From positions 788,692-852,691 of the forward strand of contig NZ_CP104395.1 of the NCBI RefSeq assembly GCF_029207735.1: DNA of 64,000 nt, given 5' to 3'. Made by a program: the position numbers and the translations under genes. This document shows, in pieces, positions 4,091-43,492 of the stretch. The DNA comes from Candidatus Nanohalococcus occultus. Lineage in GTDB: Archaea; Nanohalarchaeota; Nanosalinia; Nanosalinales; Nanosalinaceae. The first letter of the stretch is position 1; each line of letters starts with the position of its first letter. The notes under the pieces are model-generated. The model saw only the letters and a program-made list of their open reading frames with translations. It was not told the origin of the DNA and made no database searches.

Positions 4091-4179
4091 GCCGGGATGA
4101 CAGAGTCTGGCCTATTGTGCCGGTCTTGAGAACCGGTGACCCTTGACGGGTCTCCAGGGTTCAAATCCCTGTCCCGGCG
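4091..4179 (+). tRNA. tRNA-Ser(TGA)
   Basis: The acceptor strands GCCGGGA (4091-4097) and TCCCGGC (4172-4178) pair, followed by discriminator G. The anticodon stem CCGGT/ACCGG encloses CTTGAGA, giving anticodon TGA. A long paired variable arm (ACCCTTGACGGGT) marks a class II serine tRNA. The T-arm is CAGGG-TTCAAAT-CCCTG. No intron. Confidence 0.95.
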
Positions 4180-4209
4180 TATTCCTCAAATATTCAGGAT
4201 TTGATGCGA

Positions 4210-4253
4210 GAAGCACTCTACGACTGCTTCGGGTTCAAATCCCTGTCCCGGCG
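4210..4253 (+). repeat. Hairpin plus exact copy of the tRNA-Ser 3' end
   Basis: A hairpin GAAGCA/TGCTTC (4210-4230) is followed immediately by 23 bases (4231-4253) identical to the T-arm and acceptor end of tRNA-Ser at 4157-4179, offset by 74 bases. There is no room for a second tRNA. The same hairpin-then-3'-copy layout recurs at 10414-10527, 29347-29380 and 35190-35235. Confidence 0.85.
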
Positions 4254-10108: not shown

Positions 10109-10393
10109 ATGAGCAAGGAAGTACGTGCGTCACATATTCTAGTTGAAAACGAACAGCATGCGACACAAATCAAAAGAGAGATGGAAAAAGACGAAGGAAC
10201 CTTCGAGGAAATGGCCAAGGAACACTCTGACTGTCCTTCAAGCAAGAAAGGCGGCGACCTAGGATTCTTCGGCCGCGGGAAGATGGCCAAGCCTTTCGAG
10301 AAGAAAGCCTTCAGCATGGACGTAGATGAGATCAGCGAGCCTGTGGAAACACAGTTCGGATGGCATCTCATAAAGAAAACCGACGAGAGATAG
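10109..10393 (+). CDS. Parvulin-type peptidyl-prolyl cis-trans isomerase
   Basis: A single-domain 94-residue parvulin with no signal peptide, so cytoplasmic. Recognisable motifs are [13 protein letters not shown] at the start, [28 protein letters not shown] in the middle and [12 protein letters not shown] at the end, close to the full PpiC domain. It catalyses proline isomerisation to assist folding. ATG 10109 is divergent from the trmI remnant. The nine-codon 3' end (LIKKTDER-stop) is repeated twice more downstream with synonymous changes (see 10367-10527). Confidence 0.95.
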
Positions 10394-10527
10394 TCGGTTT
10401 TCTGTTTGAAGCAGAAAATCTCTGATTTTCGATCATTAAGAAGACGGATGAGCGGTAGCTCTCTGTTCTTCTAGTCACCAAGAAGATCTTTGATCTTCGG
10501 CTGATAAAGAAAACCGACGAACGGTAA
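10367..10527 (+). repeat. Three tandem copies of the parvulin 3' end, each later copy preceded by a hairpin
   Basis: Copies at 10367-10393 (the real gene end), 10432-10458 and 10501-10527 all encode [L/I]IKKTDER plus a stop but use different codons (TAG, TAG, TAA ends). Each extra copy is preceded within 1-2 bases by a perfect 17-base hairpin: GAAAATC-TCT-GATTTTC (10414-10430) and GAAGATC-TTT-GATCTTC (10482-10498). The offsets are 65 and 69 bases. The second hairpin recurs identically in the 16S leader at 40622-40638. Confidence 0.9.
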
Positions 10528-10611
10528 AGCTCGGAATAAAAATCAGGGGTGTGAAAACCACCCACACTTATCCACCTTTAAAAGAATTGTCTGGAACTTA
10601 TTGGCTACAGC

Positions 10612-13293: not shown

Positions 13294-13348
13294 GCCGGGG
13301 TAGCCAATAACTCTTGCCAACCCCGTAAAACATACAGGCAGGAAACCA
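13294..13348 (+). repeat. tRNA-Leu(TAA) 5'-end copy and hairpin leader
   Basis: The first 14 bases of the tRNA (GCCGGGGTAGCCAA) occur at 13294-13307, 55 bases before the gene. ACCCCG at 13319-13324 can pair back to CGGGGT, making a tRNA-acceptor-like mini-hairpin. Alternatively TCTTGCC (13312-13318) pairs with GGCAGGA (13337-13343). The TTGCCAACCC and AAAACAT strings are shared with the leader of tRNA-Leu(GAG) at 35018-35074. Confidence 0.75.
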
Positions 13349-13431
<83 letters not shown>

Positions 13432-22558: not shown

Positions 22559-22677
22559 GCCGGGGTAGCCAAGTCAGGCCAATCTCTGTAAACTAGTGTT
22601 TAGTTCAGAGGGTCATAGGCGATGGACTCAAGATCCATTCCCGCAGGGGTTCGAGAGTTCAAATCTCTCCCCCGGCA
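22559..22677 (+). tRNA. tRNA-Leu(CAA) with an insertion/intron in the D-loop
   Basis: Acceptor GCCGGGG (22559-22565) pairs with CCCCGGC (22670-22676), discriminator A. The anticodon stem ATGGA/TCCAT encloses CTCAAGA, giving CAA. The variable arm CCCGCAGGGG and T-arm GAGAG-TTCAAAT-CTCTC are normal. The D-loop is about 34 bases too long. The extra part, roughly 22577-22610, folds as CTCTG-x-AAAC/GTTT-CAGAG. Removing it leaves a normal class II D-arm (GCC...GGC). It is most likely a non-canonical tRNA intron, with exact borders uncertain. Confidence 0.85.
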
Positions 22678-35017: not shown

Positions 35018-35074
35018 TCACGCGAGAGTAGCCAAGGAGCTATTGCCAACCCTCCAAAAAACATGGCAAATCAC
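35018..35074 (+). repeat. tRNA-Leu(GAG) 5'-end copy and hairpin leader
   Basis: ATCACGCGAGAGTAGCCAAG (35018-35037) copies the flank and first bases of the tRNA at 35071-35090 with small changes, offset 53 bases. TTGCCA (35043-35048) pairs with TGGCAA (35064-35069). ACCCTC in the loop can pair with GAGGGT of the tRNA 5' end. The TTGCCAACCC and AAAACAT strings match the tRNA-Leu(TAA) leader at 13294-13348. Confidence 0.75.
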
Positions 35075-35157
<83 letters not shown>

Positions 35158-35189
35158 AACACCTATAATTTAAGCAGAGATGTAATAGA

Positions 35190-35235
35190 GAAGCTCCGAG
35201 GTTGGGAGCTTCGAGTTCAAATCTCTGCCCCCGCA
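35190..35235 (+). repeat. Hairpin plus copy of the tRNA-Leu(GAG) 3' end
   Basis: A perfect 8-bp hairpin GAAGCTCC/GGAGCTTC (35190-35212) directly precedes a 23-base copy (35213-35235) of the tRNA T-arm and acceptor end at 35135-35157. There is one mismatch (CCCTCGCA versus CCCCCGCA) and the offset is 78 bases. With the 5' copy upstream, this tRNA is flanked on both sides by partial copies of itself. Confidence 0.85.
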
Positions 35236-40399: not shown

Positions 40400-40687
40400 T
40401 GCCGAGTGTGTGAACACAGGCGAATAGCCGAGAGGCCAGAATGAGCGCTTATTTTTGTTTTAGCGTGATGTAGGAAGACGGACCCAAGTACATCATTGTA
40501 CTTTATCATGTAGCACATTTTTTTGTGCGGTCGACAGTTATGGATACTGTCGTTTGAGAGAATCTCTCTGAGATTTTCGAATACACTTCCGAAAATCCTG
40601 TTGGGATTTTCTGGAGTTCGAGAAGATCTTTGATCTTCGAACCCGTCCAACCCAACTATATTCCTGCTACAGGAATGATTGTTGGCA
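40400..40687 (+). other. Pre-16S leader with several hairpins
   Basis: There is no protein gene here. The leader holds CGACAGT/ACTGTCG, GAAAATCC/GGATTTTC (40591-40611) and GAAGATC-TTT-GATCTTC (40622-40638). The last is identical over 19 bases (with flanks) to a hairpin after the parvulin gene. GAAAATCC at 40591-40598 could instead pair with GGATTTTC at 42254-42261 downstream of 16S as a processing stem. A tRNA D-arm-like string (ATAGCCGAGAGGCCA) occurs near 40424. Confidence 0.5.
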
Positions 40688-43287: not shown

Positions 43288-43418
43288 CCCTCCATAGGAA
43301 ACCGCTAGTTCAGAGCCTTATTTCCGCCTTAACCTATACATAATCAGTCAACCGATACCTCACAAATAGTATTCGCTCTGAAAGATCAGCCAGAGAGAAC
43401 TGTGAACACTGTTAGAAG
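43288..43418 (+). other. Intergenic stretch between the small membrane gene and tRNA-Ala
   Basis: No gene or RNA recognised. It holds a weak inverted pair (TTCGCTCTGAAAGA near 43373, then TCAGCCAGAGAGAA) and the probable promoter of the minus-strand small gene at about 43330-43340. Confidence 0.4.
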
Positions 43419-43492
43419 TGGACCCTCAGGGATTTGAACCCTGGGCCTTCCGCTTGCAAAGCGGACGTTCTGCCAGGCTGAACTAAGGGCCC
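43419..43492 (-). tRNA. tRNA-Ala(TGC), antisense to the rRNA genes
   Basis: On the minus strand the acceptor GGGCCCT pairs with AGGGTCC and includes the G3:U70 alanine identity pair; discriminator A. The anticodon stem TCCGC/GCGGA encloses TTTGCAA, giving TGC. The T-arm is CAGGG-TTCAAAT-CCCTG. In most archaea tRNA-Ala(TGC) lies in the 16S-23S spacer on the same strand; here it is inverted. TTTAAAAG at 43525-43532 (minus strand CTTTTAAA) could be its promoter. Confidence 0.95.

Follow-up and report, generated by a model that had tools for sequence, protein, structure and literature searches.

Two tRNA-Leu genes of Candidatus Nanohalococcus occultus SVXNc are preceded by a structured leader that repeats the 5′ end of the very tRNA that follows it. 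This raises the question of whether such a leader is a regulatory RNA, the relic of a tRNA gene or the trace of an insertion. The window analysed here is the whole 64,000-nucleotide stretch of DNA at positions 788692-852691 of the single-contig, 948,351-base genome. Within it, both tRNA-Leu(UAA) and tRNA-Leu(GAG) are real tRNA genes.

Architecture and pairing of the tRNA-Leu leaders

Upstream of both genes, the same parts occur in the same order: U, a copy of tRNA nucleotides 1 to 14-15; then M, an antisense arm ([C]TTGCCAACCC..); and then a P2 partner (GGCAR) (Table 1). In the UAA leader, M (CTTGCCAACCCCG) is the reverse complement of U except for A.A and C.C mismatches, and the GAG leader follows the same plan with acceptor letters of its own. 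The 3′ acceptor strand of tRNA-Leu(GAG) is fitted by the tRNA copy and not by U. Among all triads of the form 'copy, antisense, copy' in the 64 kb window, only three have an exact 14/14 direct copy; all three lie at tRNA genes, the UAA leader among them. The original prediction had described a structured leader common to both genes with two mutually exclusive hairpins, and both the copy and the exclusive hairpins were confirmed, as was the lack of a leader at the third tRNA-Leu (CAA, 22559). The AAAACAT strings that it had also noted are present in both leaders, but they are not conserved in relatives.

Searches of Rfam at gathering and permissive thresholds matched only tRNA and rRNA, and gave no match to RtT or another known RNA family. 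A viral origin of the Leu leader was rejected, as the single IMG/VR match lies in coding DNA without a tRNA and is a chance match. The tRNA-Leu(CAA) gene itself (22559-22677) has an apparent D-loop intron, missed by ARAGORN, directly after GCCAAGT (just past nucleotide 15/16); its position is the point where U stops in the other genes.

Table 1. Coordinates of the gene-end copies, antisense arms, hairpins and adjoining genes in the window.
Feature	Position	Strand	Basis or remark
tRNA-Ser(TGA)	4091-4179	+	Gene ahead of the Ser 3′ element
M3 of tRNA-Ser(TGA) 3′ element	4195-4204	+	Sequence
Hairpin of tRNA-Ser(TGA) 3′ element	4210-4230	+	Sequence
U3, exact copy of tRNA-Ser(TGA) 3′ end	4231-4253	+	18/18 at +56
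Parvulin-type peptidyl-prolyl isomerase CDS ending LIKKTDER*	10109-10393	+	Name inferred from sequence
M arm GTCGGTTTTCT, antisense to inner CDS end	10393-10403	+	11-bp stem spanning stop codon
Hairpin A-GAAAATC..GATTTTC-G at parvulin gene	10414-10430	+	Sequence
Second copy of parvulin CDS end, IKKTDER*	10435-10458	+	8/8 aa, 18/24 nt; synonymous changes
Outermost copy of parvulin CDS end, IKKTDER*	10504-10527	+	8/8 aa, 20/24 nt
U GCCGGGGTAGCCAA, outward copy of tRNA-Leu(UAA) nt 1-14	13294-13307	+	14/14 identity to 13349-13362
M CTTGCCAACCCCG, antisense arm, UAA leader	13313-13325	+	P1 pairs 10/13; A.A and C.C mismatches kept in relatives
P2 partner GGCAGG, UAA leader	13337-13342	+	Pairs with CTTGCC; equivalent in about 8/12 leaders
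tRNA-Leu(UAA), inner intact 5′ end	13349-13431	+	tRNA call
U GCGAGAGTAGCCAAG of tRNA-Leu(GAG)	35022-35036	+	One acceptor change: GCGAGAG vs GCGAGGG
M ATTGCCAACCCTC of tRNA-Leu(GAG)	35042-35054	+	M:tRNA -11.5 vs M:U -4.6 kcal/mol
P2 partner GGCAA, GAG leader	35065-35069	+	Sequence
tRNA-Leu(GAG)	35075-35157	+	tRNA call
M3 GCAGAGAT, antisense arm of tRNA-Leu(GAG) mirror-image 3′ element	35174-35181	+	Pairs with ATCTCTGC of 3′ copy
Hairpin A-GAAGCTCC..GGAGCTTC-G of tRNA-Leu(GAG) 3′ element	35190-35212	+	Sequence
U3, outward copy of tRNA-Leu(GAG) 3′ end	35213-35235	+	17/18 identity at +60

M has three possible partners, namely U (forming P1), the P2 partner and the tRNA 5′ strand. The earlier claim that the pairing changes with the tRNA was borne out by permutation: each M with its own U gave 101 pairs against a permuted mean of 94.9, a value reached in a fraction of 0.001, and M with its own tRNA 5′ strand (105 pairs) did at least as well. 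In P1, 90% of cells are paired, compared with 24-57% in slid registers. Its two acceptor-specific columns carry 7 two-sided changes against 2.9 in shuffles, and 3 of 500 shuffles were as high. P2 was found in about 8 of 12 leaders and is absent in about 4, and two leaders carry compensated letters (TTGTC:GACAA and CTTGCCGA:TCGGCAAG). With the covariation of P1 and the recurrence of P2, the leaders contain the conserved, covarying alternative helices looked for in a tRNA-leader riboswitch.

Predicted folds of the leader together with its tRNA alternate between U:M and M:D, and in them U is able to pair with the 3′ acceptor strand, competing for it. The folding energies do not decide between the alternative folds because U differs so little from the tRNA 5′ end. 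Across leaders, U and M are conserved and the loop and spacer are not; the U-M loop ranges from 4 to about 14 nt, which rules out a recombinase core site with fixed spacing. Before tRNA-Leu, the letters CTTGCCAA of M and its mismatches are conserved across families, which points to maintenance of the arm there by selection or by copying between genes, neither of which passive insertion needs.

Occurrence at other gene ends in Nanohaloarchaeota

A search of 28 phylum genomes with the pattern TAGCCAAN{2,14}TTGCCAA gave 9 matches, spread over six genera, and 9/9 lie 40-85 nt upstream of a tRNA-Leu of type UAA, UAG, GAG, CAA or CAG. A stricter pattern gave 9 matches across 84,980 genomes, of which 5 are in Nanohaloarchaeota, all before tRNA-Leu, and 4 are chance matches elsewhere. 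The Leu-leader motif is confined to Nanohaloarchaeota, but patchy. Recurrence before tRNA-Leu across the phylum, on which the original prediction was staked, was thus found in part: the leader pattern recurs in six genera, but U is present in only 13 of 76 tRNA-Leu genes, so the leader is not retained across orthologous genes as a tRNA-leader riboswitch might be. Its presence varies within one genus (found in G008, none in G015), and in G007 the Leu leaders are nearly identical at distant loci.

The same layout is found at other tRNAs. All detected tRNAs of five Nanohaloarchaeota genomes (154 genes, gathered by family search and genome stretches) were scored by the best match of their first 16 nt to the upstream 200 nt, and of their last 18 nt to the downstream 200 nt. 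The copy scores were bimodal: an upstream copy of the 5′ end matched at least 14/16 in 12 tRNAs and at least 12/16 in 14, and a downstream copy of the 3′ end matched at least 16/18 in 19. With swapped flanks, looser thresholds were passed by 1.0% upstream and 1.3% downstream, and 30 outgroup archaeal tRNAs had 0 copies apart from one full neighbouring tRNA. Copy and antisense arm occurred jointly 11 times upstream against 0.5 expected, and 12 times downstream against 0.4 expected. Upstream bearers are Leu, Tyr, Cys, Pro and Lys tRNAs; downstream bearers are Ser, Leu, Lys, Glu, Tyr, Phe and other tRNAs.

The two sides are mirror-symmetric, with the copy outermost, the antisense arm beside the gene (usually between copy and gene) and a short hairpin in between. 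Downstream hairpins are mostly A-GAA..TTC-G (22 vs 4 C/T), and upstream hairpins are more often the reverse complement, C-GAA..TTC-T, although this is a small bias (C/T 7 vs A/G 5). The short Leu leaders are without the CGAA..TTCT hairpin found before Tyr and Lys. Units also occur in tandem, as 3.3 x 74 nt after tRNA-Leu(CAA) in L062 (G020) and as 2.5 x 61 nt before tRNA-Leu(CAA) in L073. In the window, tRNA-Leu(GAG) has units on both sides and tRNA-Ser(TGA) has one, downstream. The 74-nt unit behind tRNA-Ser(TGA) (4180-4253) is identical to one behind tRNA-Ser(CGA), about 475 kb apart (G000:C1:317915-317988).

Some related features were seen alongside these units. The L062 array (1563-1804) has a CRISPR-like look, the 21-nt tRNA 3′ end being repeated between structured spacers of ~53 nt, and its unit 1 equals unit 3 in sequence. 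In G007 (NHA25), 3′ of Ser tRNAs (for example, in the L192-L195 region), a two-hairpin insert, TCGAAA..TTTCGA, interrupts some outer 3′ copies at the T-loop position. Upstream of the 16S rRNA (window 40480-40680) lies a cluster of GAA..TTC hairpins like those of the gene-end units, without a recognised copy. Between 16S and 23S rRNA, tRNA-Ala(TGC) (window 43418-43492) is on the strand opposite to the rRNAs. RNase P RNA was detected by the Rfam archaeal model in 14 of 28 phylum genomes and not in G000, to which the window belongs, and 13 others, in which it is probably divergent rather than absent.

Protein genes can carry the same units, although rarely (3 cases in 864 kb). At 10360-10530 of the window, the nine 3′-terminal codons of a parvulin gene recur two more times downstream, in synonymous rather than identical form; between the copies lie an arm antisense to whichever copy precedes it and a hairpin of the A-GAA..TTC-G type. 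Parvulin 3′ units are present in four genomes (G000, G002, G008 and G014, with two in G014) and in none of the other genomes examined; another CDS in G008 (L309) also has a copy, an antisense arm and a hairpin. When the parvulin gene of G008 is compared with the native end in its sister genome G015, the outer copy matches 20/24, including a 17-nt run, and the inner copy 17/24; the antisense arm of G008 matches the inner copy.

Promoter spacing bears on which copy is the older. Of the 140 genes without a copy, 56 have a TATA-like box 30-50 nt ahead of the tRNA (background 4%). Among U-bearing genes, 6/14 have such a box at this distance from U, and 0/14 have one at this distance from the tRNA. 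The outer copy therefore probably marks the original tRNA start, the leader having been inserted between promoter and tRNA, and this spacing also suggests that the leader is probably transcribed. G008 and G015 have the TATA/promoter block of Leu(GAG) in common; G008 carries two extra units between this block and the tRNA, which G015 lacks. We infer that the inner end is new and the outer end old in every case, a polarity that for the tRNAs, whose inner and outer copies are often identical, draws on promoter spacing and on the modest difference at the one protein gene.

A proposed gene-end-replacing insertion and its rivals

On the reading favoured here, with moderate confidence, the leader is what a small gene-end-replacing insertion (about 50-75 bp) looks like at the 5′ end of a tRNA. 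Such an insert would bring a substitute for the gene's last 15-24 nt together with an arm antisense to it and, in most cases, a short hairpin. It would land exactly at the gene end and push the old end outward as a copy (U or U3), an echo, so that the gene would be left intact with a new inner end. The unit may move, or be regenerated, by recombination or fold-back replication. In the pre-tRNA, U and M would close into the P1 hairpin during transcription, and thus neither would disturb the acceptor stem; P2 and the M:tRNA pairing would be competing folds that could, but need not, serve control. Direct support for the gene-end unit comes from its architecture, enrichment, tandem units, promoter spacing from U, the empty site in a sister genome and the synonymous protein-gene copies.

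As at att repeats, a direct repeat of the gene end flanks the insert and the gene is restored. The inserts (about 40-80 nt, without coding room) do not encode, or derive from, an element with an integrase, and no recombinase or source copy for the units was identified. Cas1 is present in only 2 of 28 genomes (G000 and G002), with units occurring in its absence in G001, G007, G008, G014, G020 and G023, and the Y1 transposase of IS200/IS605 or REP elements is present in 0/28; neither therefore accounts for the distribution of the units.

The RNase P-site switch specific to tRNA-Leu, as originally proposed, was not supported as the primary explanation: besides its scarcity at tRNA-Leu, the layout stands at Tyr, Cys, Pro and Lys 5′ ends, occurs in mirror image downstream of Ser, Lys, Glu, Phe and other tRNAs and recurs behind a protein gene, and the copy has the properties of an original gene end that was pushed outward. 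In such a switch, P1 would leave the tRNA free for RNase P, and P2 with the M:tRNA pairing would hide the acceptor strand, controlling tRNA-Leu output. The covariation of P1, the way M follows its tRNA, the compensatory changes in P2, the swing of predicted folds and the transcription implied by the TATA spacing would all suit it. Its patchiness, even within a genus, the leaders without P2, the presence of the layout at tRNA 3′ ends and a protein gene end, and the fact that no ligand or sensor domain was seen all speak against it. We retain control by RNA as an unlikely reading, because M has alternative partners, U can compete for the acceptor and the mismatches of M are conserved. The alternative idea of a shrunken tRNA remnant survives to the extent that U is one; the rest of a tRNA, however, has left no trace in between, and the antisense arm and hairpin have to be explained in some other way.

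Other routes to a repeated gene end fare no better. Local template switching during replication, or tandem duplication, could produce sense-antisense-sense runs, which gene conversion would carry from one tRNA gene to another with no need for a dedicated element. The ordered alternation of sense and antisense, the identical units that follow Ser(CGA) and Ser(TGA), the near-identical G007 Leu leaders and the arrays of period 61 and 74 are consistent with this. The imperfections of M that are conserved across families, protein-gene copies that are recoded rather than fresh duplicates and a strong preference for exact gene ends make it quite unlikely. Scars of ordinary tRNA-targeting integrative elements, with attL/attR as the direct repeats and the element body deleted, have a precedent in known integrases, whose insertion restores the end of the tRNA while a partial copy stays behind (PMC3293823, PMC9897764). 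Deletions that arose independently would not have spared the same 40-55 nt, however, and the short, similarly organised spacers at many loci, the tandem units, the regular antisense arm and the involvement of 5′, 3′ and CDS ends alike render this origin distinctly improbable. Hardly credible is that U is a real 5′ exon, in an alternative exon arrangement or with the stretch through inner tRNA nucleotide 15 spliced out as a bulge-helix-bulge intron. In its favour, predicted folds allow U to pair with the 3′ acceptor strand, and the phylum has many tRNA introns. Splicing is disfavoured because, at each difference between U and the inner copy (G000 GAG, G014 UAA and G003 UAG), it is the inner copy that suits the acceptor. 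No bulge-helix-bulge was found at matched cut sites in 20 leaders (best 8/12), a weak test, as real introns and shuffles could not be told apart in the free-scan control.

Beyond the leader itself, we raise more tentatively, and at somewhat below even confidence, the possibility that Nanohaloarchaea hold a new class of minimal mobile DNA. These would be non-coding end-replacing units of 50-75 bp that insert at gene termini (mainly tRNA 5′/3′ ends), carry a matched substitute end and an antisense arm, build up tandem arrays and turn the displaced end into an echo. Should the units move, they would be among the smallest mobile elements known; each would supply a replacement end and so could enter an essential gene without destroying it, and such units may also help archaeal tRNA genes to acquire fragments, leaders, trailers and perhaps introns. 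If the units act as RNA controls instead, they would be a tRNA-processing switch made from the tRNA's own sequence.

Comparison with known systems

T-box type tRNA-sensing leaders likewise have two exclusive hairpins upstream of an expressed RNA and sequence matched to a tRNA, but no specifier or antiterminator features were identified here, and the downstream gene is the tRNA itself. In Caldiarchaeum, work by Sugahara in 2012 reportedly described a tRNA gene disruption in which a 5′ tRNA fragment lies upstream of a full tRNA, explained by integration; this resembles the arrangement of U, but the insertion there is said to be 1.8 kb, to carry a recombinase gene and to occupy a single locus. 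Nearest in appearance are the E. coli tyrT tandem repeats that give RtT RNA, 178-bp units downstream of a tRNA at one locus, each with the tRNA 3′ end. The units described here differ in lying at many tRNAs, at both ends and with antisense arms, and in having no Rfam match.

Casposons, which use Cas1 family integrases, insert at the 3′ ends of tRNA-Leu or tRNA-Pro, duplicating a short stretch of the target (PMC6977970). This is a likeness in target, but the 14-bp casposon duplication overlaps just the last 4 bp of tRNA-Leu, and Cas1 is lacking in most of the element-bearing genomes. The nearest precedent in logic is provided by SSV- and pNOB8-type integrases, which use 5′ or 3′ tRNA ends; the element-borne end restores the target tRNA and the displaced end stays as a partial direct copy (PMC3293823, PMC9897764). 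The units differ from these in being about 50-75 bp, non-coding and tandem, with an antisense arm and hairpin, and in using CDS 3′ ends too. No description of such units in Nanohaloarchaeota was found in open-licence papers; Ca. Nanohalococcus itself, whose strain SVXNc is maintained in laboratory co-culture, is treated in PMC10266531, where a transcriptome is reported. Since neither integrases nor tyrT repeats show non-coding units of 50-75 bp that carry antisense arms, stand at either side of many tRNAs and also follow protein genes, the units would, as far as found and judged from sequence, represent a new kind of element.
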